Of a stretch of 56,197 nucleotides of DNA, positions 1 through 25,485 are shown piece after piece. How positions within the stretch are numbered: position 1 is the first letter of the stretch; each line of letters begins with the position of its first letter. Source of the DNA: Roseofilum capinflatum BLCC-M114 (lineage in GTDB: Bacteria > Cyanobacteriota > Cyanobacteriia > Cyanobacteriales > Desertifilaceae). The stretch covers positions 1 to 56,197 of the forward strand of contig NZ_JAQOSO010000019.1 of assembly GCF_030068505.1 (NCBI RefSeq), given 5' to 3'. The notes beneath the pieces were generated by a model that worked only from the letters and a program-made list of their open reading frames with translations, had not been told where the DNA came from and did not search any database. Made by a program: the position numbers and the translations under genes.

Positions 1-288
1 ACTTTTCTTTTAAAGATTGCCCCGGACTTTGAAAACCCCCTGCTTAAAAAGGGGGACTTTCTTGTTCCCCCCTTATTAAGGGGGGTTAGGGGGGATCTTT
101 CTAATGTACTTCATTACAGGCATGAATTCCGTTGTGCTGGGGAGGCAATACCTAGGATGGTAGTGCCAAAGAGAAGGATGGATAGGGTTTTGATGATGTT
201 CATGGGATGAGTCCTGAAGGTTGATTGAGGAAGAGGGGGCGATCGCCAAAGGATAACCAGAGGGCGATCGCATCTTTATTACCTTGAG
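1..288. repeat. GC-rich hairpin repeats downstream of the giant gene
   Basis: This stretch carries no convincing gene. It holds two short inverted repeats, C5/G5 arms at about 36-55 and C6/G6 arms at about 67-85, both belonging to the poly-G/poly-C palindromes scattered in cyanobacterial genomes. They lie just past the stop codon of the minus-strand giant gene and could help end its transcript, but no clear T-run follows them. The rest (about 110-288) contains HIP1-like GCGATCGC sites and nothing else I can name. Confidence 0.5.
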
Positions 289-3200
289 TTATTTTGTCTG
301 CCTCGATTTGATTTGAGATTCTAAAGCATTTGGACTCACATTAATTTTCTGATTATTGACCTCAATCCATACCTGTAAATCAACATGAGTTCCGAAAGAA
401 TTTCCTGTATTACCTTGTGTTCCAATGTCTTGTCCTGCTATTACTCTATCTCCTGGTTTTACTTGGCTACCATTTGGATATTTACTATCTGCCATGTGTG
501 CGTAAGCTGTATAAACTGGGTAGTCTGTTCCTTTGTAGTTATAATTGACATCAGTTTTGATACGGATACGAGTTCCGTAACCACCTTCTTTTCCAGATGA
601 AACCACCTCTCCTCCATACCATGTACGAACTCGCTTATCCTTCACGTCATAGTCAATGCCAATATTGTAATTACCAGGGCCAATCGTTCTAATTTTGCCA
701 TCTGCAAATATGGCTTGAGATTGATAAGTTTTGTAATTGTGGCCACGAGATTCCATATAACCACCAGTAACTTTGATTTCACCCAGTCGCCCATTTTTGA
801 TCCAGGGTGATTGAGTAGAATCTACATATTTTTCAGAAATATTTGTTATTCTCACAGCCGTACTAGGACGCTGAGGTTCACTCCAGGTGTAAATCTGCCT
901 CATATTACCAGTTGGCCCAAAACCAGTGTTTTCATACAGCCACGGAACTTCACTACGTTCAAACAGAGGCGGTGGATCAACTAAATCTTTTAGCCCTGGT
1001 ATGTACTCTACATAACGTAAGAAAGACTGCAAGCTTGTTGTATTTTCAACGATAAATTGAACAGTTCCATCTGAATTGGGAGAAACCTTGACATTATAGC
1101 TCCCTACAAATTGCTCTGTTGGATCGAGACCTGCATCCAAAAACTCTTTTGGCCCAAAATTATAATGCTTTGCTTCTCCAGGGGACAGTTTACCTTGATA
1201 AAACAGTTCCCTTGCCTGATTGACCCCTGGTGAATCCATCATGCTTTCTACCTGAACACTGCCCGGACCGAAAACGCGATCGCGCTCTTTTCCAATAGCC
1301 CAGTCTCCAGTCATACTGGCAGCATCTAATACTGCTTTGATATATCTTTCCAGAACCTTGCTTTCAGCAGAAGCTACACCAGAATTATCAGCCTTGAATA
1401 AAGAAGAAGGATCGCCAAAAGCATTTCCGTAAGGAAAATCGTTGCCATTTCGATCAACAAATCTGTACTGACCATTTAACTCATATATGTATCCGATCGG
1501 TACTCCACTATCTCTGACATCAACATATCTAGTTGCCTTTTCGGGAACCTGTTCGGGATATTTTCCCTCTAATATCACTTCTGGCTGTGGGTATGCTTCT
1601 TTAAACTGAATAGTTCGTATTGGATTTCCATTAGCATCAAGTTCAGTTAGCGATATTCCTTGTGCAGATCCTTCTAATTTTTCCTGATTTTGTTGTTCAT
1701 TTTCTTCTTGATTACCATTTTCTGGATTTGTAGTGCTGTACTTTGTTCCTGTTGGGTCGATGTAGATATTGCCATCCTTATCCTGCCAAACATTTTCTAA
1801 TGGCACTCCATAATATTCTGCTACTTCCTGAAGTTCGCGATCATCAGAGTTTGATTCCTGTTTGCTATCGATCTCAGGTGGACAAATGCACTCCTCTTTC
1901 CCAGAAATTTTATCAACCAAACCAACTAGGTCGTCTTTCCAGATATTCAAGATACCATTGATTCCAGAAAGCAACCCTTCAATGCCACCATCCTTAATCA
2001 CGCCAGCTAATGCCAGACCCGTATTACCCGCTTTACCGGTAACTTCCAAAACTTTAGACAGAGTGCTATTGAAATTACCGGCAAAACTTTGACCGACGGA
2101 AAGAACAGCATTGAAAATATTGCTTATCGCGTTTAACCAGTCACCATCCTGAATCGCCTTAATCCCTCCATAAATCATCTGTGGGGCTTTTTCCAGACTT
2201 TGCACCACGGAAAGCATCACTTTTTGCGTGGTTGCGCTCAAGTTTTTAACCAAGCCACCTACACCCGCAGAGGCGACACTGGCGATACTGCCGAGGATTT
2301 GTAAGAAGCCCAGAATGCTCTCGCCAGACATAATCGAACGTGCGCCACTAAAAGCACCCGCAGCCACAGATTGTAGGGATTGCAAAGCTAATTTAGCTCC
2401 GGCAGTCAGGGTATTACTCATACCCATGGTAACCGCATTTAAACCTGCCATTACCACACTGAAAATACCGCCTAACCAATCTCCATTCATTACCGCTTGA
2501 ATGGCAGTAATTCCCGCAGTCGCCAGGCTTAAACCAATGGCAAAAGGAATTAACACAGGGAAGGAAACACTGAGAATAGAAACAATAGTGCTAAGAACAG
2601 TCATGACTTGCGAAATCAGTCCCAATGTACTGTTCCAGAAATATTTTTTCCGCGCCTTCCGTTCGGCAACCCGTTGTTCGATAATTTGCTCCAACATTTC
2701 CTTCGATTGTTGGGCGAGTTCGTTGGAAATATCAACCGCTTGCTCGGCTAAAGCAACTTTATTTAAAGTCTCCAAATAGAGTGGGTCGAGAGTTTGTTTT
2801 TCACCGTCCAACTGCTCCATTCGCTCCAACTCTTTCAGAAAATCTTTAGACGCTTTCTGGATATCTTGCTCGGCAGTTTGTAACAGGGCAATATCCCACT
2901 GTTCCTCTAACTCGATGCGATTAATATCGGCTTTATAGTGTTGAACTTGGCCAATTAAACCAGCCATCACCTTAAACAGATTGCCCTGAATGTTAGCCGC
3001 TTCTTCGCCTTGCAAAGCCTGATGAATATCACTCTCAACCTCTGTTAACAGCGCTTTCAAATCTTGCGGTAATTCCGGTTGTTGCTGTTCCAAATTTTGC
3101 AACTGGGTTAACAGTGTCGCCATTTGCGACTGCACCTGTACCGGGTTAAAGTCCCCATCAACGCCGTCTAAACCGACTTGAGAGCGCACCGCATTCACCC

Positions 3201-6200
3201 CTTGTAGCAGGGCATCCTCGGCTTGCAACTGCTCCAGTTGCTCCAACTTCGCCCGCGCTTCTAACCGTTGACGCTCTAGCTCGATCGCCTCTCGCTCCAA
3301 GCGCTCCTCTACCGCTTTCTCGATGTCCTCTTGCCGTTGGGTAGCGATGGTTTGCTCTAACTGCGCTTGGGCGAGATTCAGTTGTTCTAAATTTATCAGG
3401 GTGATAAACGTTTGCTCCGTTTGTTCCCGGATGCGGGTAATGCCCTCTAGACGGGCTTGAGCCACCGCTAACTCCTGTTGTTTCTGCTCTCGCTCCTCCT
3501 GAGTTTCGGCAATGCGGTCATTAATATCTTTCAGCATTTTCGCTGCCGTATCTTGTTGCGCTTGCAACGCATTCTTCTGAGCTTGGGCCGTGCGTTTCAG
3601 GTGGCCGAAGTGGTTGGCTTGCGCTTGGGCACGGTGCTGTAGCTGGCGGTGCGTGAGCATTTCGTGATAGTAGCGGTTCGCTAGGGCGCGGTCTTCCGGG
3701 CGGGCAATCCCTCCAGCGCAACTGCCCCCGGTATCGCTGGCAATATCGCTATAATCTCGATAGTAGATTTCCGCAGCCGTCGCCATATCATTGTGCATGG
3801 CTACATCCAGCAGGTGTTTCGCCTCCTGATTGCCATTTCTTATCATCTCCTGCAACCGTTGCTGAATCTGGAATTCCAGGTCATTGACTTCCCGTTGTTT
3901 CTGGGCTGCTTGCAAGGTATAGTTGGCGTTTAATTCCGTCGCTTCCAACAAGTCGCGCAGAATCTGCTGATGTTCTTTGGCGGCTCGTAAATGCTCGTCA
4001 TTTTGCGCCAATAAATCGGCTTGCACCTCTTGCAATGGAGCCGTGAGCGCCTGACTGCTGGCTTCCGCTTGCTCTGCCAACCGTTGGGCTTCGGCGAGTG
4101 CAGCGCGTGCATCAGCTAACTGTTGTTGCAACTGCTCTAAGTCGCCGGGAGAGGTGAGATAGGCATCGAGCAGCCGTTGCTCGGCGAGAATGACCTCATG
4201 TTCGGCAGTCAAGAGGGTGCGTTTTTGGCTAAATGCCCGTTGCTGTTGCTGCAAGACGGTGGCTTTATTGTCGAGCAACCCTAGGGCGTTTTGCAGTTGC
4301 GCCTGTTTGGTTTGTAGGTCAACATTACCGGAAGATTGGGCAATTTGTTCGGACAGGATTTCCCGTTGGGCAATTAAGTCTTCCCGCAGGCGGTTGACTT
4401 CCTCGGTTTCCGTCGTCAGGGCAACGGTTTGCCGCTCTACCCATTGCTCGACATCGGCAAGTTGATGCTGCAATTCCTGGGATTTGCGGTTGAGTGCGCC
4501 CCGTTTTTTGAGAATATCTTCCACCATGGGCAGATATTGGCTGTCGTTGGCTTCGAGTTCTTTCCATTCGGCGAGAACTTTGGCGTTATAGGCATCGGCT
4601 TCTTTTTGCGCTTGAGCTAACTGTTGCTCGACTTCCGGTAAGATATCTTCGAGCTGCTGCAACGCTTCCTTGGCGGCGGGAATTTGTTCGCGACTGGCTT
4701 CTAGCTGTTCGACTAAATTGCGACTGGCAGTAATAGAAGGCTCGGCTGCATTGACGGCGTTGACGGTGCTTGCCCATTGTTCGGCTAGGGGTTTTAAGCG
4801 CTCCTGTTGCTGGGACTGGTTATCGGTGGCAACGAGTTGACGAACGGCTTGTTCGCGCAGTTGCTTGGCATACTTGGTATAAGTATCCCAGAGAATCCAG
4901 TCATGATCGATGTGGGTGAGGGTAACCCAATGGTCTTCTCTCCTACCAGACCTACCGCGCTTCCAGGTTTTCCGGCGCTCTGTCCAAGTGGGGCCATTTT
5001 TGCGACTGCGATGCCAATGGTGGGCTGCTCGTTTTTCGTACCAGTCGGCTTGGGCTAGGGCTGCTGAGGCTTGGGCATTGGTTTGCGCGAGTTGGCCGGT
5101 GACTTGGGCGAGTTGGTTATTATATTTTTGGCTCTTATATTCTGCTTCTGCTTGCAGAATGTCAATCGCTGTACCATTCTCTGGAGCGTTATTTAGAAAC
5201 TCCGCACGGTAAGCTTTAGCGGTGGGCAGTTGTAAGGCTGCATTCCGTTTTTGAGCGGCAACATTAGCGGCATGTTGAGAGGCATTCCGTTGAGCTTCAG
5301 CATGGTGGTTGTGAACCCATCCATAGACGGGTAATTTTTTAAGCAGTTGCAGCCAGGAACTTCTTGAGTGCCAACCCGTAATACCCCAAGTGCGAACCTT
5401 GCTATTCCAATAATTCGCATTCATTTGATACTGATGCCGTTGAGCTTCGTATTGCTGCGCTCGTGCTTCATCCTGTTGCTTGTAGATTTCATACTGCTGC
5501 TGGTACTCTGCCAACTCCTCGGACTCTGCACCATAGCGCTCGGCAATGGGGGCAATTTCTTCCCAGAGCTGGGCATCTTGTTCAATCCACTGTTTGAGCT
5601 TGTCGATTTCTTGGGTTAAGGTGGTTTGCCCTTGTTCGAGTTCGTCATAGCGGGGAGCAGCGACTTCCAGGGTAGTAATAGCATCGCGCAAATTGGCTAA
5701 CGTGCGATCGCGCTCTCCATCAACATCCCCCAGTTTCTCCTCAATATACGCCACCAAATCATCGACAGATTGGGATAATTCCTGCTGACTTGCGCCAATT
5801 TCCTTGGTTTGTGCGTGTCCCTCCAGCAGTTGCTCCGTCCAAACTTTGGCTGCATCGCCCAGGTCTTGCCGGAGGCGATCGCCCAATTGCGCGTAAGCTA
5901 AGATGGTATCCTCGCTCAATGCTGTCTCTGTGGCTTCTTCCGTCTCCAATTGACGCTCAAGCGCTGCTAACCGCTCATCATTGGTTTCCAGTTGCTGGCG
6001 AATTTCCAGTTCTTGCTGCTGACGCAGGGGTTGAATGGCGTTGGTGGCTTCTTCGAGACGGGTAGTGAGAGCGGTGATGATATCTTTATTATCCTGCTGG
6101 CGGGTTAAGAGGCGATCGCGCTGAATGGTCGTCTCATCAATCAAGGCCTGTAGGTGCGAACGGCCGTTCGCCCCTACAATGGGGGTTCGACGTAATTCGT

Positions 6201-9200
6201 CTTCCCAATCAGCAATCAGATTATTCAAATTATCCAATTCTGCGGTTAATTCGGTGCTGCGAGTTTCCAACTGCTCGATAAACTCATTAACTTTGGGTTC
6301 TACTTCCGTGGCAAAGAAATCCACATCCGACTCTGTTCCCAAAACCCCAAAGCTAATCATCCGTTGCAGCGCTTCCGCTTGTTCGGAAGTCGTTTCCGCC
6401 AACTCATCCGCCGCATCAGTCGCCTCATTCACCGCATTTTGGAACGCCGCTAATTTAGCCTTTTCCGCCTCTTGCAGGGGTTTAAGCCGCGCAATAATCG
6501 GGGCCATATCCCCTTCAATTCGAGCCACTTCTGCCGTCAACTGGGTCACTTTCGGAGTCACTTCAGCCAGGGCCGCTTGCTTCTCATTCACAACAGCCAT
6601 TTTCGGTGGAATTTCTCCTTTCAGTTCCGCAATTTTCGCCTCAGTTTCCTGAATTTTCGGCCAAAGATTATTGCGCTGTTCTGCCAACCGAGACGCTTTT
6701 TGCAAATTATGGCGATAAGCCGCAGCATGGCCACCATGATAAGCATAGGTGTGCCCATTCCAATACCACATATGTTGACGATGGTATTGCGCTTGTCCGT
6801 AATAATAACCTTCCGCACTGCGTAGGGGAGCATCCTGCGCTCTCAAGCTGTGCAACTGCAACTCTTGCGTCCGTAATTGATGTTGAGTAAACGCTAAATC
6901 TTTCTGAGCATCAGCCACTTCAGCTTGCAATTCTTCCTGCTGTGCCGTCACTTCTGCCAGATTCGTTTGAGTCTCAGCCAAATCCGATTGTAACCCTAAC
7001 AGAGCTTGCCGGTCTTGTTCCCCTTGCTGGCGAATTTCCACCAACTCTTCTGTCGCAGTAACCTGATTTTCCAGCGCCTCTTGCCAAGCATCCGCCGCAT
7101 TTTGATAATCCGATTCCAACGCATCCGCCTCATTCAGAACCGTCAACCGATTTTCGAGCCGCTCGACTTCCGTATTCATCTGTCGCAAGTAGTTATCGGT
7201 TAACTCAATTTCCCGATATTTGTCGGCAATTTCCACTTCTTTATCGGCAATGCGTTCATTAATTTCATCCAGAGTTGCTTGGAAATAATCCCGCTCCTCT
7301 TCGTTAATTTCCCGTTGCGCCTGCAAGTCCTCAATCTTGACTTCATTGGCAGCAATATCATACTCAAGTTCAGTGATTTTATCCTCAATCTCGGATAACT
7401 CAGTTTTCAACAGTTCCAAGGCTTGCTGCTGATTCGCCAATTGAGTTTCTTGGGCCACTTTCTGAGCCTCTAGTCCTTGTTTCTCTGTTTCTAAATCAGC
7501 AATCTTGGTTTCAGTTGCTGTAATTTCCGGTTGTAACTGATTCGCCAGGTTTTGTGCGTCTTGAGCCGCTATATCGCGTTGTTGAGCTGCATTTTGCGCC
7601 GCAGCCAGAGAAGCATCACGATTAACTACAGCTTGAGGATTGTGAATCCAACCATAAACCGGAACTTGTCGCCATCCAGTACGCCAATTTTTTCCTGATT
7701 TATATCGGTAAGATTCCCAGCGATGACCGGTTACTCCCCAAGTGTTAATTCTACTATTCCAATGATTGGCATTGTTTTCATGTTGCTGACGCTGGCTTTC
7801 CCAATTCTGAGTTACCGCATTCGCATCTTGAATCTGCTGATGATAGCCTTGTAAAACAGACTGTTGTTCGCCAATTTCCGCATCTTTATCAGCAATCTTG
7901 CCCTCAGTCTCCGCAATTTCAGATTCAATGTCATCAATCTGAGCTTCTTTATCGGAAATCAAGTCCTCTTGCCCAACTTTATCTTGTTCAGACTGCGCCA
8001 GATGATGCTCAAGGATTTTAATCTCTTCTTGGGTTGTCCGGATAGCTGTATTCGTATCAGCAATCTGCTGTTCTTTGAGGGCAATGGCATCCTCTAAATC
8101 AGCCTCAGCATTAATCGCTTGAATCGCGGTAAACTGCGCTTGCGTCTCTTTCAGGTTAGCCAGCTTTTGCTCTGACTCTTGAATCGAGGGTTGTAAAGTT
8201 GACTCCAGTTCTTTTGCTTTTTGAGTGGCTAAATTCCGTTGGTGAGCCGCATTATTCGCCGCCGCTTGAGCCGCATTGCGATTATGTTCTGCTTGGTGAT
8301 TATGAATCCAACCATATACCGGTCGTCGATTTTTACCCTCATAGCGAACAACACCCCAAGTGCGAATTCGACCATTCCAATAATTCGCACTATTTTGATG
8401 GTGATGCCGTTGATTTTCCCAGTGTGCAGCAACCCCATGAGCATCCCGGATTTGAGTTCGATAACCGTTGAGAACCTCCTGTTCTTCGTCAATCTTCTCT
8501 TGCCATAGCTCTACTTGCTTCCCGATTAACTTCTCTTCCTCAATCGCCGCTTTTTCCAGTCCCAACTCGCGATATTCTCCCTGCAACCGCTCCAGGGTTT
8601 CATTGGCATCCGTTTGTTGTTCTTGCGCCGCATCTAACCGGTCTTGCAAGTCATCAAAGCCATTCAAGAAACTCGTACTGCGGTTCTCCATTTCCCGCAA
8701 GAAATCGATATACTCTTGCAACGGCAAAGAATTGGTTTCCGGTAAATTATCGCGCCGGTTTTCCAACTCTTCAATCAACTTCGCCAGCGCCAACCGTTGC
8801 GGAGATTGGGGAGCAGACCAATTAATCTGGTCTTCCTGTAATTTCGCCCAATCCAGTTGTTCGTCGATATCGGAGATATAGGCTTGCACCGCTTCAAATT
8901 GCTCCACTAAATCGGGATTCGTCGTTACCGCATTGCCCAACTGTATCAACAATTCTTGAGCGCGAATTTTCTCGTCTTCCAGTTGCTGGATTTGCTTTTT
9001 AATCGCTTGCAAGCGCTCTGGATAGGGCAAGAGATGGCCATAGGTTTCCAGGAACGTTTGTAAATCCTTTTGGGTGGTTTTCCGTTCCTCACGATTGGCT
9101 GTAGATTGCTCTTGCAAATCCGTTAACCGAGCTTCCGTTGCCTTGGCTTTATCTTCCTGAGTGGGTAACTGCTCGCCTTCGAGTTTCGCCAATTCTTCCT

Positions 9201-12200
9201 CAGCTTGTTGAATTTGTAAATCCAGGGTTTCCAGTTGCTGCCGTTGCACCGGAGTTTGCAAGGCGAGTAAATCTTCTTCTGCTTGCAATTTTTGCTCGTT
9301 GGCATTGATTTCATATTGAATTCCCTGTTTCAATTCCGGCCAATCTGCCACCCGTTCTGCCAACGCTCGCGCCTGTTGATTAAGGTTATCGGCCTCGGTT
9401 TGAGCTTGTCGCGCCCATTGTTCAAAAACCCGGCGTTCGCGTTCAGCAACATTGGCTTGATGTTGGGCTTGATTTCGAGGTGCAATATGTTCGGGATGTC
9501 GTCCACAACTAAAACGACCAACATTAGGCTGATACAGACGATTATGATGGTTAGCCGTATCTTGATTTTGCTTACGCCGTTGTTCAGCTAACGCAGCTTT
9601 GTGCCAATATTTTTCTGCCAGTTGAGTCTTTTTGGCTGCTTGTTCTTGCAGCACTTTTAAGATTTGATTGGCATGTTGAGATTCACCGGTAAGTTGAGAG
9701 AGGCGTTGATTATTATTCTCCAGGAGTTGCTGGTAACCGCTCAAAACATCAGTTTGATGATTCATCTGAGTCGCAAGCTGGTCAATTTTCGCGGCATTCG
9801 TTGACAAGATATGACCTTGGGTTTCAGCACTGTAGGCATTTTTGCCAGCTTGGTTGGCTAGAGCCATGTGGTGATTGTATAGAGGATGTTTTTGCCTGGG
9901 AGAGCGTCCGCAAGTTAGCCAAGAACGACGAGGTTGAGTTATCCAAGAATACTGATGGGCAAGATGAGTATGATGGTGCTGTATTTGCCGGTGCTGCGCT
10001 CCTTGCTGATAAAAACTCGAAGCAGTCGCTCTCAAAGCCGCAGATTTTTGTTGATACTGGGCAATTTTCGCCTTTAACTTGTCAATCTCAGCTTGCACAG
10101 CATCGGGGTCAGCGAGTAAAGTATCGGGGTCAACTAACTGGTATTGCAGTTTCGCCAGCGCGTCTTTCACTGCTTCCTTGCTCTGAGCAATGGCTTCTTC
10201 TAGTAGCTCTATCTGCTCGGTATTCCCTTCAACTGCTTGCTCGCGCTCGGCTTTCAATGCTGCTAATTGTTCGTTTAACTCCTGTTGGCGAGTTTGCAAG
10301 GTTTGCAAGCGCCCTAATTCCAGTTGATGATGGCGGGTTGCCAAGGCTAAAGCGTCGGCTAACTGTTCTGACTCGGCAAGGGAAATGGCGGCATCGGTGT
10401 CGGTTTGCTGATAGCGCTCTAATGCCTGTTCTTTCTGCTCTTCCAGGGCTTTTTGCAAGTCCTCTAAGCTTAAATCGGGATTACCTAAATCCGATAGGGT
10501 TTGCCACTGCTGCAATAACTGATTCTGGGTATCGGTGAGAGCCTCTATCGCCTGCTCGGTGGCTTCTCCAGCCGCACGAGTTTGAGTAGTAACCCGCCCT
10601 TCGCCGGTAAAACGCCTCACGTCGATATCTTCACTCTTAACGACCTCTTCTGGAGCAATTAACCCCGCCATCAGCACGGCTTCGGTGACATTCAGCAAGC
10701 CTGCACCGCTCTCGGTATCCCAACCTTCTTCGCCTAAGTCTTTTGCCGTTTGTACGAGAATCTCTTTGACTTGCTGATAGCTTAATTCTGGATTCGCTTG
10801 CCAAACTAAAGACGCGGCTCCGGTAACATAGGAGGTTGCCCGCGATGTACCGACAAAGGCATCGGGGTCATTTTTATGTTCTCCTCCAGGAGCAACGAGG
10901 GTGAGGGTTTCGCCGCGACTGGAATAGTCGGCGACTTCTTCGGTGGGGTTGACTGCACCGACGGTGATGATGTTGTCGAATTCATCGGCAGCTTGTCCCA
11001 AGGCAGACATATCATCCCCAGTATTTCCAGAGGCGACAACGAGGAGAACGTTGTTATCGCGAGCGTATTGCAGGGCGAGTTGTTCTTCTGGAGTGAGTTG
11101 ATAGCGGGTGGTGATTTGCCCTTGGTCGTCGATTTGAGTTAAATCGAAGCTGAGGTTAACGATACCGCGCACATTATTCGCGTCACCCGTAGGGGCAGGT
11201 TCACCCAAATTTTGGCCGTTAGACGCATCAATTGGTAAACCTGCCCCCATACCCGTGGCATTTTCACCAGTAATGTTATTCACATTGATGGTGGGGGAAA
11301 GGGCGGGTTCAGGTAAATCTGGGTTGGTGTTGGGGAGGGTTGCAGAACCCGCCCCTACGGGGTTATTGGTGGTGGGTAATCCGGCATCGTCGCGGAGAGT
11401 ATCGACATAGGCGATAAGTTGTTGTGCCCAATTGTTTCCTTCTATGCCTAATGTTTCGTATTCATTGCTGGGATTAACGGACTCGAAAACTTCGGTAACG
11501 TCTTCTCCATGGTCTCCAGCAAAGTCGATGAAGGCAACGGGAACATCAGGCGAGTCGGGTAAAATTAGGGAGGCTGCGCCTTGGGCGTTAATGAGATAGT
11601 TGTCCCATTGGCTAAAGTCTTCGCTGGTGAAGGCTTCTTGCAGAGAACCGGGTAAGCCGAAGAGTTCGCCGATTTCGGGGTTGTCGATAATGGCGTTAAA
11701 GGTTTCTGCGGCTTCGGGGGCAATGCCGACTTTTTCGAGGATATCGGGACGCTCTAGAACGTTGTAAATTGTGCCAAAGTTGTCTTCGAGTTCAGTAAAG
11801 ACTTCTTCGACGACGGGCAGAAGTTCAGGATTTTCTAAGACTTCGATGAGGTTATCGGGATTTTCTTCAAGGGCTTCCTGAACTTTTTCTAAGCCGGTAT
11901 TGAGTGCTTCTACGGATTCTTCGGAGACGGTGTTGTTGACGACTTCGATGGTGTGGATGGCGCTTTCTCCGGTTTCGGATACTGCGCGGACGGCAATTTC
12001 GGTGATTTCGGTAATGTCGGTTTCGGGTTGGGGGTTGATTTGGAGGCGATCGCCCTCTAAACTAGCAGAAGCTTCTGTTTCTGTAGGCTCGGTGTCCTCA
12101 ATCCCCGGAATTACAGGCACATCATCAGGTAATTCTTCGGTTACATCGCCCCCTTCAACTAACTCATAGGTAACTGTTTCATCTTCTGCAACTGCGAAAA

Positions 12201-13704
12201 TATCGGATAATTCAATCACTGGCTCAGACTCTTCTGGGTCTAAAACCACCGATTCAATCTCGCTAATGACCTCTATGGGTTCGGGTTTAATATAATCGAG
12301 AATCTCTTGCCCTAATTCGGTTTCGCGCCAGTCGTTCTCAATGTCAATCACGTCATCGAGGTGTACTGCTTTACCTGTCGCGCCTTTGATGCGGAAGATG
12401 ATGTCGTTGTAGTCATAGTCGCTGTTGCCATCAACCCGGATATCTTCCATGACAAAGGTATGGCCATCTCCGGTAACATCGGCAATTTGGCCCACATGCA
12501 ACCCATCATCAGGATTTGCTGTAGAAAGGGAGAACAGAGGACGACCGGAACCGCCGATACTGGGGTTATCGAATACTTGTTGTACGCTCTTGTTGGGAAC
12601 GAGCATTACGCCAAAGGTGTCTCCAGGGCGCATCTGCACGGTTTTCACACCGGCGAATTCCCCTCTATTCCAGTTCTTTTCGCCCATAGCGCCCTCGAAT
12701 TTCGCGCCTTCTGTTTTGTCAGAAATGACGATATGACCCAATTTAGGGGCATTTTCGGCGGGGAAATCGGTGTCGGTGGGGGCGGGTTCACCTAAATCTG
12801 GGTCAATCGACGAATCGGTTGATGAACCCGCCCCTACATCGGATGGGGTTTCGGTGGATTCGATACCCAAGGCGCGAGCGGCAGCTTCTTGGATGAAGGC
12901 TTCTGAACCAGGTTCTAGGTTGTCCATGCCTTCTAAGCTAAAGAAGGCGACTTCTCCCTGATATTTCCCACCATCAAAGAGATACTCAATTTCTACTTCT
13001 CCAGTTTCGCCAACGGTGAAGACTCCGGAATCAAATTCAAAATTAGGTTCGGGTTGGGCGAGTTGCTCAATGACTTGCTCTTGCTGATTCTTGTCGGTAG
13101 CCTCTTCTGGTTCATCTGAGTTTTCCAGGGTTTCATCCCCTGCTGTCTCATCTGTTGTGGGAAGAATTTCCTCTTCACTGGTGGCTTCCGAGGTGAAGGC
13201 TTGTGCTACAACCGGCTCTTGGGAATCCTCAGTTTCGGATTGAGCATCGATAACTTTGCTCGGTTCTGTACCCTCTTCTGTTTCACCCGTTCCATCTAGA
13301 GTTAAGGTTGGCGCTACTACTTGCTCTGGAGAACCGTCAACTTCGGATTCAGCATTGATGACTTCGTTGGGTTCTGTATCCTGTTCTGTTGGCAAGTCGG
13401 TAATAAATTCAATCTCTTCGATGTCTTCGTCTGGAATGAGATTAGTGACTTCAGCCGTGTCGATTTCTTCGCGGGTATTGGCATCGGGTTCTACTTCTTG
13501 GGTTTCTGGTGTATCGGTCTCTTCAACGAGGTCAGTATCAAGTTCGGGAATGTCAATACTGTCTGTATCGAGGTTATCTGGGGTTTCTTCAAATCCATCG
13601 ACGATGCCGCTAGGGGTGAGGATGGGTTCGAGAATAAAGGTTTGAGAGTCTTGGGGGTTGGAGGTTTTGGATGATTTTTTTCTAAACCAGTTTAAGAACG
13701 ACAT
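289..13704 (-). CDS. Giant coiled-coil protein with DUF4114-like, subtilisin-like and M23-like domains
   Basis: About 4,471 residues. I chose the ATG at 13704 over the GTG eight codons upstream because AAGGA lies about nine bases before it; the protein then begins MSFLNWFRKK, with no classical signal peptide. Domains in order: an acidic Glu/Asp/Thr-rich region (about 1-250); a DUF4114-like domain rich in Asp/Asn (about 330-460); a subtilisin-like domain (about 710-1030) with plausible Asp727, His732 and Ser954 (GTSRAT) and an SGN oxyanion segment; a very long coiled coil (about 1060-3690) broken by at least eight Trp/His/Asn-rich beads; a Gly/Ala/Ser-rich hydrophobic stretch (about 3690-3940); a CICPPE motif; then an unassigned region and a C-terminal M23-like domain (about 4340-4450) with YAHM, GNTGNS and GTHVD motifs. 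The M23 metal ligands look altered (Asn4347, Asp4351, Asp4442). It stands alone on its strand. Surface assembly, giant toxin-like delivery or a cytoskeletal role are all possible; none is shown. Confidence 0.85.
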   Translation of the reverse strand: MSFLNWFRKKSSKTSNPQDSQTFILEPILTPSGIVDGFEETPDNLDTDSIDIPELDTDLVEETDTPETQEVEPDANTREEIDTAEVTNLIPDEDIEEIEFITDLPTEQDTEPNEVINAESEVDGSPEQVVAPTLTLDGTGETEEGTEPSKVIDAQSETEDSQEPVVAQAFTSEATSEEEILPTTDETAGDETLENSDEPEEATDKNQQEQVIEQLAQPEPNFEFDSGVFTVGETGEVEIEYLFDGGKYQGEVAFFSLEGMDNLEPGSEAFIQEAAARALGIESTETPSDVGAGSSTDSSIDPDLGEPAPTDTDFPAENAPKLGHIVISDKTEGAKFEGAMGEKNWNRGEFAGVKTVQMRPGDTFGVMLVPNKSVQQVFDNPSIGGSGRPLFSLSTANPDDGLHVGQIADVTGDGHTFVMEDIRVDGNSDYDYNDIIFRIKGATGKAVHLDDVIDIENDWRETELGQEILDYIKPEPIEVISEIESVVLDPEESEPVIELSDIFAVAEDETVTYELVEGGDVTEELPDDVPVIPGIEDTEPTETEASASLEGDRLQINPQPETDITEITEIAVRAVSETGESAIHTIEVVNNTVSEESVEALNTGLEKVQEALEENPDNLIEVLENPELLPVVEEVFTELEDNFGTIYNVLERPDILEKVGIAPEAAETFNAIIDNPEIGELFGLPGSLQEAFTSEDFSQWDNYLINAQGAASLILPDSPDVPVAFIDFAGDHGEDVTEVFESVNPSNEYETLGIEGNNWAQQLIAYVDTLRDDAGLPTTNNPVGAGSATLPNTNPDLPEPALSPTINVNNITGENATGMGAGLPIDASNGQNLGEPAPTGDANNVRGIVNLSFDLTQIDDQGQITTRYQLTPEEQLALQYARDNNVLLVVASGNTGDDMSALGQAADEFDNIITVGAVNPTEEVADYSSRGETLTLVAPGGEHKNDPDAFVGTSRATSYVTGAASLVWQANPELSYQQVKEILVQTAKDLGEEGWDTESGAGLLNVTEAVLMAGLIAPEEVVKSEDIDVRRFTGEGRVTTQTRAAGEATEQAIEALTDTQNQLLQQWQTLSDLGNPDLSLEDLQKALEEQKEQALERYQQTDTDAAISLAESEQLADALALATRHHQLELGRLQTLQTRQQELNEQLAALKAEREQAVEGNTEQIELLEEAIAQSKEAVKDALAKLQYQLVDPDTLLADPDAVQAEIDKLKAKIAQYQQKSAALRATASSFYQQGAQHRQIQHHHTHLAHQYSWITQPRRSWLTCGRSPRQKHPLYNHHMALANQAGKNAYSAETQGHILSTNAAKIDQLATQMNHQTDVLSGYQQLLENNNQRLSQLTGESQHANQILKVLQEQAAKKTQLAEKYWHKAALAEQRRKQNQDTANHHNRLYQPNVGRFSCGRHPEHIAPRNQAQHQANVAERERRVFEQWARQAQTEADNLNQQARALAERVADWPELKQGIQYEINANEQKLQAEEDLLALQTPVQRQQLETLDLQIQQAEEELAKLEGEQLPTQEDKAKATEARLTDLQEQSTANREERKTTQKDLQTFLETYGHLLPYPERLQAIKKQIQQLEDEKIRAQELLIQLGNAVTTNPDLVEQFEAVQAYISDIDEQLDWAKLQEDQINWSAPQSPQRLALAKLIEELENRRDNLPETNSLPLQEYIDFLREMENRSTSFLNGFDDLQDRLDAAQEQQTDANETLERLQGEYRELGLEKAAIEEEKLIGKQVELWQEKIDEEQEVLNGYRTQIRDAHGVAAHWENQRHHHQNSANYWNGRIRTWGVVRYEGKNRRPVYGWIHNHQAEHNRNAAQAAANNAAHQRNLATQKAKELESTLQPSIQESEQKLANLKETQAQFTAIQAINAEADLEDAIALKEQQIADTNTAIRTTQEEIKILEHHLAQSEQDKVGQEDLISDKEAQIDDIESEIAETEGKIADKDAEIGEQQSVLQGYHQQIQDANAVTQNWESQRQQHENNANHWNSRINTWGVTGHRWESYRYKSGKNWRTGWRQVPVYGWIHNPQAVVNRDASLAAAQNAAQQRDIAAQDAQNLANQLQPEITATETKIADLETEKQGLEAQKVAQETQLANQQQALELLKTELSEIEDKITELEYDIAANEVKIEDLQAQREINEEERDYFQATLDEINERIADKEVEIADKYREIELTDNYLRQMNTEVERLENRLTVLNEADALESDYQNAADAWQEALENQVTATEELVEIRQQGEQDRQALLGLQSDLAETQTNLAEVTAQQEELQAEVADAQKDLAFTQHQLRTQELQLHSLRAQDAPLRSAEGYYYGQAQYHRQHMWYWNGHTYAYHGGHAAAYRHNLQKASRLAEQRNNLWPKIQETEAKIAELKGEIPPKMAVVNEKQAALAEVTPKVTQLTAEVARIEGDMAPIIARLKPLQEAEKAKLAAFQNAVNEATDAADELAETTSEQAEALQRMISFGVLGTESDVDFFATEVEPKVNEFIEQLETRSTELTAELDNLNNLIADWEDELRRTPIVGANGRSHLQALIDETTIQRDRLLTRQQDNKDIITALTTRLEEATNAIQPLRQQQELEIRQQLETNDERLAALERQLETEEATETALSEDTILAYAQLGDRLRQDLGDAAKVWTEQLLEGHAQTKEIGASQQELSQSVDDLVAYIEEKLGDVDGERDRTLANLRDAITTLEVAAPRYDELEQGQTTLTQEIDKLKQWIEQDAQLWEEIAPIAERYGAESEELAEYQQQYEIYKQQDEARAQQYEAQRHQYQMNANYWNSKVRTWGITGWHSRSSWLQLLKKLPVYGWVHNHHAEAQRNASQHAANVAAQKRNAALQLPTAKAYRAEFLNNAPENGTAIDILQAEAEYKSQKYNNQLAQVTGQLAQTNAQASAALAQADWYEKRAAHHWHRSRKNGPTWTERRKTWKRGRSGRREDHWVTLTHIDHDWILWDTYTKYAKQLREQAVRQLVATDNQSQQQERLKPLAEQWASTVNAVNAAEPSITASRNLVEQLEASREQIPAAKEALQQLEDILPEVEQQLAQAQKEADAYNAKVLAEWKELEANDSQYLPMVEDILKKRGALNRKSQELQHQLADVEQWVERQTVALTTETEEVNRLREDLIAQREILSEQIAQSSGNVDLQTKQAQLQNALGLLDNKATVLQQQQRAFSQKRTLLTAEHEVILAEQRLLDAYLTSPGDLEQLQQQLADARAALAEAQRLAEQAEASSQALTAPLQEVQADLLAQNDEHLRAAKEHQQILRDLLEATELNANYTLQAAQKQREVNDLEFQIQQRLQEMIRNGNQEAKHLLDVAMHNDMATAAEIYYRDYSDIASDTGGSCAGGIARPEDRALANRYYHEMLTHRQLQHRAQAQANHFGHLKRTAQAQKNALQAQQDTAAKMLKDINDRIAETQEEREQKQQELAVAQARLEGITRIREQTEQTFITLINLEQLNLAQAQLEQTIATQRQEDIEKAVEERLEREAIELERQRLEARAKLEQLEQLQAEDALLQGVNAVRSQVGLDGVDGDFNPVQVQSQMATLLTQLQNLEQQQPELPQDLKALLTEVESDIHQALQGEEAANIQGNLFKVMAGLIGQVQHYKADINRIELEEQWDIALLQTAEQDIQKASKDFLKELERMEQLDGEKQTLDPLYLETLNKVALAEQAVDISNELAQQSKEMLEQIIEQRVAERKARKKYFWNSTLGLISQVMTVLSTIVSILSVSFPVLIPFAIGLSLATAGITAIQAVMNGDWLGGIFSVVMAGLNAVTMGMSNTLTAGAKLALQSLQSVAAGAFSGARSIMSGESILGFLQILGSIASVASAGVGGLVKNLSATTQKVMLSVVQSLEKAPQMIYGGIKAIQDGDWLNAISNIFNAVLSVGQSFAGNFNSTLSKVLEVTGKAGNTGLALAGVIKDGGIEGLLSGINGILNIWKDDLVGLVDKISGKEECICPPEIDSKQESNSDDRELQEVAEYYGVPLENVWQDKDGNIYIDPTGTKYSTTNPENGNQEENEQQNQEKLEGSAQGISLTELDANGNPIRTIQFKEAYPQPEVILEGKYPEQVPEKATRYVDVRDSGVPIGYIYELNGQYRFVDRNGNDFPYGNAFGDPSSLFKADNSGVASAESKVLERYIKAVLDAASMTGDWAIGKERDRVFGPGSVQVESMMDSPGVNQARELFYQGKLSPGEAKHYNFGPKEFLDAGLDPTEQFVGSYNVKVSPNSDGTVQFIVENTTSLQSFLRYVEYIPGLKDLVDPPPLFERSEVPWLYENTGFGPTGNMRQIYTWSEPQRPSTAVRITNISEKYVDSTQSPWIKNGRLGEIKVTGGYMESRGHNYKTYQSQAIFADGKIRTIGPGNYNIGIDYDVKDKRVRTWYGGEVVSSGKEGGYGTRIRIKTDVNYNYKGTDYPVYTAYAHMADSKYPNGSQVKPGDRVIAGQDIGTQGNTGNSFGTHVDLQVWIEVNNQKINVSPNALESQIKSRQTK
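6150..6176. repeat. Palindromic repeat inside the giant gene, translated in frame
   Basis: A near-perfect palindrome, GTAGG(T/G)GCGAAC and its complement around a central GGCC. The same element occurs between genes at 18726-18753 and, in a longer form, at 21809-21854. Here it is translated within the coiled coil (peptide IVGANGRSH), so a dispersed repeat has been absorbed without breaking the frame. Confidence 0.85.
11189..11250. repeat. In-frame palindromic repeat in the subtilisin-like domain (copy 1)
   Basis: Inverted arms of roughly 20 bases (GTAGGGGCAGGTTCACCC... and its near complement) flank a short spacer. The minus-strand translation is MGAGLPIDASNGQNLGEPAPT. It lies in the subtilisin-like domain between the His region and the SGN segment, where a surface loop would be tolerated. 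Confidence 0.85.
11290..11358. repeat. In-frame palindromic repeat in the subtilisin-like domain (copy 2)
   Basis: Second member of the same family, with arms around GGGCGGGTTC and GAACCCGCCC. The minus-strand translation contains VGAGS...PDLPEPA. It is separated from copy 1 by only about 38 bases, so the subtilisin-like domain carries a double insertion of roughly 60 residues. Confidence 0.85.
12776..12837. repeat. In-frame palindromic repeat before the DUF4114-like domain (copy 3)
   Basis: Third member, with arms GGGGCGGGTTCA and TGAACCCGCCCC. The minus-strand peptide has VGAGS...DPDLGEPAPT, closely matching copies 1 and 2. All three lie in the same orientation and reading phase. Confidence 0.85.
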
Positions 13705-14383
13705 GGGGGTAATCCTTGGTATATGCACAACATGATGATTGAGCAGAAGCGATGAAGGCTTCTATAAGGTACTCAGGTTTTGGGGGGGTAGTTTTATGCA
13801 AAATCGAGAAATCTGTAATAAAACTTCATATTTTGTTTAAGAGACGATTTGAGTTATGTTCTCTCAATCCCTTGTCCAAAGAGAGTTTTATCGGATTAAT
13901 GGCTTGTAACGAAATGTGAAGTGTGGTTCAGGTACAGATGTTAAGGTGGGCAGGGTCTACTTGTAGAATTTGAATGATACTGCGGTTTTCTCCTGCCCAC
14001 CCTACTGGCGTGACATAGCTCATTTGGTGTTTTAGGAATGGGTGGTGTAGCGTGTCCGCAGGACAAGCATCTTGCTTGTTAGAGGTGACAGGGCAAGATG
14101 CTTGTTATATCAAATCCTTAAATGGTTGCTACTTTCTGTGTACTGTAGAGACATGGTGGGTTCGTGCGGGTTTCCGCAAGCGGACATGAATACAAAAATA
14201 GTTGTCAGTCTACAAGATTTGGGTATAACCCGCCCCTACAGAGATCTGTAGCGCAAATAAATAGATTTTATATTAGAGGTGACAGCGAGCAAGATGCTCG
14301 CACTCCTTCCTCTATTGCTCATTTTAGCTGCGTCACGCCACTACGATTGATACGGTAGAGCGATCGCCTAGTAGGGACTATCG
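13705..14383. repeat. Repeat-filled intergenic region upstream of the giant gene
   Basis: No gene is supported here. The first ~150 bases should hold the minus-strand promoter of the giant gene, but I see no clear consensus. The rest is a series of dispersed palindromes: 13945-14005 (GGTGGGCAGGG...CCTGCCCACC, same family as 48310-48366), about 14050-14105 (arms around CAAGCATCTTGC), about 14157-14239 (a diverged GGGTT...AACCCGCCCCTAC element, same family as the in-frame repeats of the giant gene), and about 14276-14305 (GCGAGCAAGATGCTCGC). A 64-codon plus-strand frame here runs through these repeats and is not a credible gene. Confidence 0.7.
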
Positions 14384-22822: not shown

Positions 22823-25399
22823 ATGCTATATCTGGGATACAAACACCGTTGGGTAAAGTTCTTATGGATCGCTTTAATTGCTCTGGTTGTTGCTCTGCTC
22901 GTTGGTATGGGAGTGCCAGCAGTGGGAAAGGAGCAACCGAGAACAGTTTTGGCGACGACTAAGACGACTGATTTAATTGACCAGGGTCGTCAATGGTATC
23001 AAAAACAGGAGTATGAACAGGCGATCGCCCTTTGGCAACCTGCCCTCACCCAATTTGAACGTAGCGGTGAAACAGCCCAACAAGCGCTCACTCTCAGTTA
23101 TCTCGCCCTCGCTTATCAAGGTTTGGGCAACTGGGAGAGCGCTAAACAGAGCATGGAGAGCGCCCTGAACCTCTTAAAGCCTTTACCCTCAGAAGTGGGC
23201 ATTCTTGCCCAAGTTCTCAATACCCAAGGACAACTGTATTACAGTCAGGGACAACTGGAAGCGGCTCTATCCGCTTGGGAACAGACAGAACAAGCCTATC
23301 AGCAAGCCGGAGATGGGGAAGGGGTAACCGGTAGTCAACTGAATCAAGCCTCGGTTCTGCAACGGTTAGGGTTAAATGAGCGATCGCAAGACCTCCTCAA
23401 TGCTCTGATCGAACGCTTAGAACCTCAACCCCCTAGCCTGCTCAAAGTACAAGCCTTGAGAACCTTGGGGGTTAGCTTCCATCTCGCGGCTCAGTTTGCA
23501 AAAGCCCAACAATTACTCGATGAAAGCTTAAATCTGAGCCAGAGTTTGAACGCTCCTTCAGAAATTGCCCAAAATTTCTTGAGTTTGGGCAATTTGGCCA
23601 AAGATTGCAACCATCCAGAAGCAGCCCTAGACTATTATCAACAGGCGATCGCCACAACTCCCGATCATCTCCTGCTCAAAGTCCAAGCAAACGCCAACCT
23701 TCTCCGACTCCACCTCGAACAACAAGCCTTTACTGAAGCCCTAGAATTAATCCCCCCATTAAAAGCTGACCTCGCCCAACTGCCCCTAAGCCACAGCAGT
23801 ATTTACGCCCATCTCAACGTCGCCGAAAGTCTCTTGAGACTCTTTCGCCTGCAACCCGAACTTGACCCCACGCTGCTAGAAACCGCCGCCCAACTCACCG
23901 AACTTGCCAGACAACAGAGCCTTACCCTCAAAGACTCCAGAGCGCAAGGCTGGGCAACCTTGCAACTGGGTAAACTTTATGCCCAAAACGAAGAACTGGA
24001 AACCGCCCTACAACTCACCCAAGAAGCTCTGTTTATGGCCCAAAAAATCGGCGCGGCTGACTTGCAAGCCAGAGCCAGTTGGCAACAAGGGCAACTACTG
24101 GTGCAACAAGAGGATGAACGTTCTGCCCTGGTTGCCTATCGCTCGGCAGTCGATACCCTAGAGTCAATTCGGGGGGATGTGGTAGCAACCAACCCAGATA
24201 TGCAATTTTCTTTTAGGGAAGATATCGATCCAGTTTATCGGGGATTAATTGGTCTTTTGCTACAACCGGATGAGGAGAATCCACAAGATCCAAACCGGGT
24301 GCAAGAAGCCCGTGACATTCTCGAAGCTCTGCAACTGGCAGAATTAGATCACTTTTTCCGTGAAGCCTGTCGAGCCAACCGCCCGACACCCATTGATAAA
24401 ATTGACCCGAAAGCTGCGGTTATTTATCCAATTATTTTACCCGATCGCCTAGAAGTCATTCTCACGCTTCCCGGCGACATCCAACAACACTACTCTACCC
24501 CCATTCCCCAACCGGAATTAGAAGAGCATTTACGACAAATGCGCCAATCTTTACACCCTGCCTATTCCAATCAAGAACGGCTGAAGCTCTACCAACAAGC
24601 CTATAATTGGCTGATTCAACCCGCAGAGAGTGCCTTAAGAGCATCGAAAATTGAAACCTTAGTCTTTGTTCTCGATAGTCAGTTGCAAAATGTGCCCATG
24701 GCTGCGCTTTATGATGGAGAACACTATTTAGTTGAAGAGTATGCGATCGCCCTCACCAAAAGCTTAAAACTGATCCAATCTCCCCCTTTAGAGCCAGAAA
24801 AATTACAAGCGCTCACCGCCGGACTCAGTGAAGCTCGCCAAGGATTTCGCCCCCTTCCCGGTGTTGCTTCCGAAGTGGAACAAATTGGCGATCGCATTCA
24901 AACTCGCGTGTTGCTCGATCGGGAATTTACGGCAGAGGAACTGAAACAGGCAATTCAGGAAACGCCTTTTCCCATTGTCCATTTAGCCACCCACGGTCAA
25001 TTTAGCAGCGATGCAGAAGAGACATTTATCTTAACCTGGGATAGTCAAATTAATGTGCGCGAACTGGATACGTTGGTCAGCTCGCGATCGCAACCCTTGC
25101 AAAACCCCATCGAATTACTCGTACTCAGTGCCTGCAAAACCGCACAAGGAGATGAGCGAGCCATATTAGGATTAGCCGGGGTTGCCCTGCGATCGGGCGC
25201 TAGAAGCACTCTGGCTACATTATGGGCTGTTCGAGACCAATCTACCGCCCAATTTATGGTTGACTTTTACCAACACTTGAATCAACCCGGAATGAGCAAA
25301 GCCAAAGCCTTGCAACAAGCGCAAATTAACCTCTTGCACAGTAAATACCATCATCCCATTTACTGGGCCCCCTTCGTCATGGTCGGCAATTGGCTTTAG
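22823..25399 (+). CDS. TPR-CHAT domain protein (caspase-like peptidase)
   Basis: 858 residues. An N-terminal hydrophobic segment (about 13-34) is a signal peptide or membrane anchor. TPR units follow (about 50-430; e.g. GRQWYQKQEYEQAIALW). The C-terminal CHAT domain (about 540-858) has the His motif HLATHGQF and the Cys motif LVLSACKTAQG, the catalytic pair of caspase-like CHAT peptidases, followed by GLAGVALRSGARSTLATLW. Members cut target proteins when an upstream sensor is triggered; here the substrate is unknown. The STAND NTPase gene starts 86 bases downstream on the same strand, so the two are probably coexpressed. Directly upstream is the hemagglutinin remnant. Confidence 0.92.
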   Translation: MLYLGYKHRWVKFLWIALIALVVALLVGMGVPAVGKEQPRTVLATTKTTDLIDQGRQWYQKQEYEQAIALWQPALTQFERSGETAQQALTLSYLALAYQGLGNWESAKQSMESALNLLKPLPSEVGILAQVLNTQGQLYYSQGQLEAALSAWEQTEQAYQQAGDGEGVTGSQLNQASVLQRLGLNERSQDLLNALIERLEPQPPSLLKVQALRTLGVSFHLAAQFAKAQQLLDESLNLSQSLNAPSEIAQNFLSLGNLAKDCNHPEAALDYYQQAIATTPDHLLLKVQANANLLRLHLEQQAFTEALELIPPLKADLAQLPLSHSSIYAHLNVAESLLRLFRLQPELDPTLLETAAQLTELARQQSLTLKDSRAQGWATLQLGKLYAQNEELETALQLTQEALFMAQKIGAADLQARASWQQGQLLVQQEDERSALVAYRSAVDTLESIRGDVVATNPDMQFSFREDIDPVYRGLIGLLLQPDEENPQDPNRVQEARDILEALQLAELDHFFREACRANRPTPIDKIDPKAAVIYPIILPDRLEVILTLPGDIQQHYSTPIPQPELEEHLRQMRQSLHPAYSNQERLKLYQQAYNWLIQPAESALRASKIETLVFVLDSQLQNVPMAALYDGEHYLVEEYAIALTKSLKLIQSPPLEPEKLQALTAGLSEARQGFRPLPGVASEVEQIGDRIQTRVLLDREFTAEELKQAIQETPFPIVHLATHGQFSSDAEETFILTWDSQINVRELDTLVSSRSQPLQNPIELLVLSACKTAQGDERAILGLAGVALRSGARSTLATLWAVRDQSTAQFMVDFYQHLNQPGMSKAKALQQAQINLLHSKYHHPIYWAPFVMVGNWL

Positions 25400-25485
25400 A
25401 GACAACTTCATTTTAATGAATGTTGAAATACTAAGAGGTGAATAATAGGATGAATAGCAACTCACGTTAATCCATACTGGGGACA

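Follow-up and report, generated by a model that had tools for sequence, protein, structure and literature searches.

What purpose a single protein of 4,471 residues might serve in a cyanobacterium is the question raised by a 56,197-nucleotide stretch of Roseofilum capinflatum BLCC-M114 (contig NZ_JAQOSO010000019.1, positions 1 to 56,197; hereafter the window), which carries such a giant gene at one end. A first-pass annotation of this DNA described one gene of about 4,471 residues, with a subtilisin-like domain near its front, 2,600 residues of coiled coil and an M23-like domain at its end, and proposed that the product could be a self-processing surface filament, a giant delivery machine or an intracellular scaffold. 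The gene was confirmed to be a single uninterrupted frame on the minus strand, running from an ATG at 13704 (with an in-frame GTG at 13728) to a stop at 289; the subtilisin-like domain was recovered by Pfam, and the proposed coil fits the coil-like composition of residues ~1030-3690 (about 2,660 residues). The earlier layout was incomplete in that it gave neither the strand, the DUF4114 domain, the hydrophobic region at residues 3692-3819, the N-terminal FILEP motif nor the variability of the C-terminus. We propose that the giant is probably a weapon of the polymorphic-toxin type, a conserved carrier with an exchangeable C-terminal effector, of which the M23-like domain would be the present cargo, because the C-terminus swaps among toxin families on the same body.

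Residues 3540-4471 were used as a query against 59 related genomes (match, E <= 0.001; strong match, E <= 1e-40). Family matches were found in 17 of the 59 and were strong in seven (G000, G003, G005, G012, G016, G026, G040), in which the shared part corresponds to residues ~3540-3980 of the window protein; two of the five other Roseofilum genomes (G003, G005) carry the giant. With a profile of the shared part, 31 loci were identified in named genomes, all cyanobacteria by title (Roseofilum, Microcoleus, Planktothrix, Okeania, Symploca, Oscillatoria, Crocosphaera and others), and 10 of 386 phylum-wide genomes were matched, one of them weakly. Repeat loci had been dropped before counting (L032, L033, L036, L049 and L056 being the same as L021, L022, L023, L027 and L028); the frame-broken L053 is described only, and two loci, L054 and L058, are fragments of contigs, although L058 was included in the scan of tails. 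The search across cyanobacteria for proteins of the same architecture, as envisaged by the first-pass annotation, bore out the body, found at the 31 named loci, and not the whole order of domains, since the C-terminus differs among loci.

The closest relatives of the window giant are found in Roseofilum acuticapitatum (L021) and R. halophilum (L022). The R. halophilum counterpart is a frame of 4,471 codons that starts at a GTG, with 86% identity across 4,062 alignment columns, and that of R. acuticapitatum is a 4,029-codon frame. Because two Roseofilum relatives carry it at ~86-90% identity, the frame is genuine and not the assembly artefact that the first-pass annotation had allowed for. This likeness extends up to residue ~3940 and ends abruptly, at residues ~3939-3941 against both relatives, with none beyond. 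At the DNA level L022 is 91% identical as far as window position 1882, and L021 is 94% identical as far as 1889, followed by ~1.64 kb without a match and then by 97% identity over 219 bp (window 33-249). Among close relatives, therefore, a conserved N-terminal carrier was found with its C-terminus replaced.

The replaced ends point to toxins. The tails of 27 relatives were scanned (L036, L038, L048, L051, L052, L053 and L054 were left out), and nine of them scored above the Pfam cut-off for a toxin or lipase family: Lipase in L032, L037, L056, L057 and L029, the CdiA-type RNase A family RNAse_A_bac in L045, the colicin-E3 type nuclease family Cytotoxic in L058, the lysozyme family Pesticin in L060 and Ntox24 in L025. 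Below the cut-off were a reprolysin-like match in the L039 tail and a Pesticin match in that of L061. In L045 a CdiI_2 immunity gene lies directly downstream and overlaps the end of the RNase tail. The giants of L023 and L026 stop just past the hydrophobic domain and are followed by a separate RHS/teneurin-shell gene, a similar arrangement in L038 being judged from first residues only. Four distant relatives (L055, L056, L057, L061) terminate in RTX repeats. Membership of toxin families was thus found through the relatives, the window tail being M23 and of no classical toxin family. Open reading frames (ORFs) of 147 aa that follow L037 and L039 were considered as immunity genes and are poor specific candidates, because unlike toxins precede them. 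Since known antibacterial toxin domains replace one another at the C-terminus, the delivery machine is the earlier option that gains support. The intracellular scaffold was not supported, as the shared N-terminal module belongs to LysM, LGFP, cadherin-like or M23 proteins.

In canonical M23 domains the zinc ligands form the pattern HxxxD ... HxH. The window domain departs from it (N4347xxxD4351, H4440xD4442), the usual ligand positions being occupied by N4347, D4351 and D4442, with H4403 and H4440 retained. The same Asn/Asp/Asp in place of His/Asp/His was found in all three variant members compared (window, L009, L112), and the canonical members L011 and L017 retain HxxxD and HLH. Because L009 and L112 carry identical changes, the altered-ligand M23 is, judged from the sequences, a shared variant and no sequencing slip. 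L112 combines the variant with Amidase_2, Glucosaminidase and LysM, company that would therefore point the variant to the cell wall. Sequence resembling the window tail (E <= 1e-8) occurs in two of the 386 phylum genomes, the window's own included, and a PDB search with the tail gave no match. The M23-like domain described earlier at the end is upheld by Pfam as a domain; it is no constant part of the machine, since the C-terminus is variable. As a separate observation, L119 (11274-16316) encodes a 1,680-aa protein with the order FILEP-DUF4114-S8-LGFP-M23, with canonical-looking M23 residues and without a long coil.

The carrier itself also has distinctive parts. The Pfam Peptidase_S8 match at residues 867-1002 (2.1e-22, above the curated cut-off) covers the C-terminal half of the model, and the likely Asp and His lie upstream of it, at D727 and H732. 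These are 5 residues apart in the window giant, and the spacing is four to six residues across giants against ~38 in the seven large cyanobacterial proteins compared with them (L098-L101, L103-L105). Of the 22 distinct giant loci that have S8 sequence, 21 keep an Asp/His/Ser triad, recognised by pattern in 19 and by eye in two; the 22nd, the split L050, was left unjudged. That the triad is kept despite the shortened Asp-His spacing suggests a working but specialised protease. The best NCBIfam subtilase match of the window giant was mycosin, far under the cut-off. Within the coil, residues 1860-2170, together with 15 relatives, were predicted as a long helical hairpin, with a predicted local distance difference test (pLDDT) score of 93.8, whose tip is swapped for another small module in L034, L036, L039, L042 and L043. 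The Foldseek matches of this model were for the most part coiled-coil and helical proteins, among them Rad50 (9e-4) and SMC, with colicin Ia and Tc subunits no better than E 2e-3, and they appear to be generic for long helical hairpins. A PDB search with a profile of the hydrophobic domain gave no match.

A conserved carrier with a variable toxin end is the known plan of polymorphic toxins, as set out by Zhang et al. (2012; PMC3482391); the 300,000 of its 357,715 characters that were searched contain none of the words M23, HlyD or coiled. Like CdiA, RHS/WapA and MafB, the giant has a long conserved carrier and an exchangeable C-terminal toxin, and its relatives carry RNAse_A_bac with CdiI_2, Ntox24, a colicin-type nuclease and lipase, with RHS genes at some loci. 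Unlike theirs, its carrier is coil-rich, comprises ~4,000 residues and has a FILEP/DUF4114/S8 head. The first-pass annotation, which knew of no described system with this order, was half right: the carrier and variable toxin plan was known, and L119 has a FILEP-DUF4114-S8-LGFP-M23 order of its own. The window domain resembles MepM/LytM endopeptidases in matching Pfam M23, and differs from them in having Asn/Asp/Asp at the zinc-ligand positions.

If the giant is such a toxin, residues 1-3940 would be the carrier, probably exported, comprising the FILEP tag, DUF4114, a shortened-loop subtilase, the helical body and the hydrophobic domain, and the last ~530 residues would be the exchangeable effector, whose M23-like domain is probably directed against the wall of neighbouring cells. 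The tag would be read for export by an M50 protein with an HlyD adaptor, and the giant would remain on the cell surface or close to it by means of its N-terminal module, while the coil would present the cargo at a distance and reach the neighbour. There the hydrophobic domain may assist the entry of the final 530 residues into the envelope of the target, whose wall the M23-like domain would attack. The subtilase may trim or release the giant protein.

That the missing signal peptide leaves export open, as the first-pass annotation remarked, was well taken, and the FILEP motif is now a candidate answer. Pfam and NCBIfam scans of the giant protein found no TPS, PAAR, WXG/LXG, PVC or signal peptide, its residues 1-60 hold no hydrophobic stretch by composition, and the LEPR-XLL-type N-terminus, also considered, gave no NCBIfam match at E <= 1. 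What is new here, at the level of sequence, is the N-terminal motif [QE][TS]FILEPxxTPxG, which is common to the giants and other large proteins, at residues ~15-40 behind a basic stretch. It is borne by large proteins encoded near M50 genes in L119, L122 and L123, and the window genome has nine matches, including proteins of 4,471, 3,413 and 5,404 aa. The last is encoded at L157 (1490-17704, contig C72) and has, by eye, a cadherin-like C-terminal sequence.

A FILEP profile matched 16 of the 386 genomes and an M50 gene (E <= 1e-30) was found in 24, among them 15 of the 16 with FILEP (p 6e-20, a value that, like the one given below for GNAT, ignores shared ancestry and overstates independence). 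The exception, G080, has a weak FILEP match in a 68-residue ORF. In G010, G232, G239 and G387 a motif variant (such as FILERIITPSA) and an M50 gene lie within ~0.6 kb. An M50 gene is near five of the 31 named giants. By tblastn, an HlyD gene is downstream of M50 in six of 14 copies whose downstream side was readable (L035, L086, L122, the first copy of L123, L124, L126), one of which is on contig C26 of the window genome; weaker cases are L120 (Pfam below cut-off) and L121 (by eye). The M50 protein matches the NCBIfam families daptide HExxH (6e-41) and YydH/LiaK (3.5e-12), both below curated cut-offs. In this it resembles the M50 proteins of pathways for ribosomally synthesised and post-translationally modified peptides, unlike which it tracks huge proteins and not small peptides. 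By eye alone the M50 protein seemed to begin in a PqqD-like manner; five N-terminal pieces gave no such Pfam match, and the feature is not claimed. It may be, and we put this forward tentatively, at somewhat short of even chances, that the FILEP motif is the N-terminal sorting signal of an export pathway formed by an intramembrane-type M50 protease with an HlyD adaptor.

Alternatively, the giant could be an RTX-like type I secretion substrate to which the M50/HlyD link is incidental. HlyD proteins are adaptors of type I secretion, their presence in several loci and the giant size recall type I giants, and the RTX ends of L055-L057 and L061 would agree with this; we nevertheless consider it unlikely, as the window protein has no Pfam match to RTX repeats, its candidate tag is N-terminal, the motif tracks M50, and an M50 protease replaces an evident ABC exporter, no ABC transporter gene having been noticed beside M50/HlyD in the loci read, where most ORFs were judged by eye alone. 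Less probable still is the self-processing surface filament or adhesin, a coil fibre with adhesive or matrix-remodelling tips and an M23 domain for the cell's own wall or sheath. The FILEP/DUF4114/S8 module does occur in other large proteins, such as the 5,404-aa FILEP protein of the same genome, and in L119 a FILEP protein ends in M23 and lacks the long coil, but an RNase A with CdiI, a colicin-type nuclease or a pesticin-type end would be senseless as an adhesive tip, and exchange of the C-terminus between conserved flanks also argues against a filament. Coil together with M23 resembles phage tail tape measures, and it was considered whether the giant is a part of an injection particle or is carried by a contractile injection system. 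ORFs for tube, sheath, a DUF4255-like protein and an AAA ATPase were seen by eye in L088 (349-6578, contig C102), ~12 kb from the second giant gene of the window genome, as were sheath-like and AAA-like ORFs directly beside the M50 gene in L125 (1520-8722, G045). None of the ten scanned window neighbours is, however, a tail gene, inspection of first residues by eye showed no such ORFs at the other listed giant loci, and the S8/DUF4114 head and the C-terminal exchange fit poorly, making this the most improbable of the alternatives.

Several observations weigh against the polymorphic-toxin weapon and its proposed export. Toxin-family matches above the Pfam cut-off were absent from 18 of the 27 scanned tails, an immunity gene was recognised at only one relative's locus (L045), and none was seen in the 288 bp between the window giant and the contig end. 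Two of the three usual zinc ligands of the window M23 domain are altered, S8 was found in only 22 of 36 distinct giant loci (some others being cut by contig or flank ends), and the model of the hydrophobic domain is poor (pLDDT 48). The giant is without a match in three of the five other Roseofilum genomes (G001, G002, G004), and G001 has GNAT and M50 genes without it. Of the nine strong giant genomes in the 386, two are without M50 and three without the FILEP motif, the giant of G016 has no recognisable FILEP motif, nine of the 24 M50 genomes lack FILEP, and HlyD does not follow M50 in L119, L125, L037, L048, L052 or the second L123 copy.

Features of the giant gene and its 3' flank in the window (coordinates in window positions)
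Feature	Position	Strand	Remark
Giant carrier-toxin gene P0001, 4,471 aa	289..13704	-	Single uninterrupted frame; counterparts L021, L022
N-terminal motif QTFILEPILTPSGIVD, residues 21-36, behind basic stretch	13597..13644	-	Putative export/sorting tag
DUF4114 domain, residues 358-441	12382..12633	-	Pfam above curated cut-off, E 1.7e-23
Subtilase (S8) domain, residues ~719-1002; D727, H732, N894, S954	10699..11550	-	
Coiled-coil body, residues ~1030-3690, several Trp/His/Tyr-rich tip segments	2635..10617	-	Composition and homology
Modelled hairpin, residues 1860-2170: helix (123 residues), beta-hairpin tip, helix (147 residues)	7195..8127	-	pLDDT 93.8
Conserved domain preceding the cargo, residues 3540-3944, with hydrophobic part 3692-3819	1873..3087	-	Basis of family search
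Variable C-terminal cassette, residues ~3945-4471	289..1872	-	Missing from both closest relatives
M23-like domain, Pfam 4348-4454	343..663	-	Above curated cut-off, E 1.3e-11
Truncated ORF MNIIKTLSILLFGTTILGIASPAQ..., apparent remnant of small secreted protein	114..203	-	In conserved 3' flank

The contig starts at window base 1, 288 bp past the stop codon of the giant, and a shared 3' flank begins ~40 bp past that stop. With a 188-bp probe (window 101-288; 40 of ~160 first-look candidates scored per genome) at least six places were found in three genomes, five of them beside giant loci (the window, G005 C67, G003 C49, G000 C102 and, by a 29-bp match only, G003 C111) and one a 36-bp match elsewhere, so that the flank adjoins all five giant loci known in the three Roseofilum genomes. 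In C102 and C49 the flank opens an ORF for a small protein that looks secreted; in the window and L021 this ORF is truncated.

A GNAT-like gene (~340 aa) occurs in the DNA around 16 of the 31 named giant loci, many of which end at contig ends. It was found in all seven strong giant genomes and in one of the 52 others (G001; p 2e-8, to be read with the reservation stated above). The window genome has two copies away from the window giant, one of them near the second giant. An HlyC-like role for this protein was considered and not adopted, its only PDB matches, one acetyltransferase and one polyamine acetyltransferase, being weak. Likewise, the upstream kinase-WD40 and PP2C genes were not counted as parts of the giant system; a close kinase match was found only in R. 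halophilum (L022), with WD40 alone elsewhere, and the phosphatase at no other locus compared. XisH/XisI genes, which are common in cyanobacteria, lie near several giants. In L024 (14143-18032), downstream of the giant, almost identical copies of XisI stand, together with a fragment of GNAT, beside an intact GNAT gene, an arrangement that reads as after local duplication or cassette insertion. L087 (2227-7467, contig C96) encodes a 1,746-aa fusion of a TPS secretion domain and a CHAT protease and adjoins a GNAT-like gene. In the window itself (22823-27948) a TPR-CHAT protease gene is followed by an nSTAND1-pentapeptide gene, resembling a defence or cell-death module.

Among titles and abstract openings in the open literature, with preprints outside this scope, no description was found of the giant family or of a FILEP/M50/HlyD route. 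The giants described here would make up a family of very large polymorphic toxins in cyanobacteria, of which many form filamentous mats, and FILEP with M50 is a candidate explanation of how huge proteins that lack a signal peptide get out of the cyanobacterial cell. If this is true, the FILEP route would carry proteins of 1,000-5,400 residues, giant exchangeable toxins included, out of filamentous cyanobacteria.
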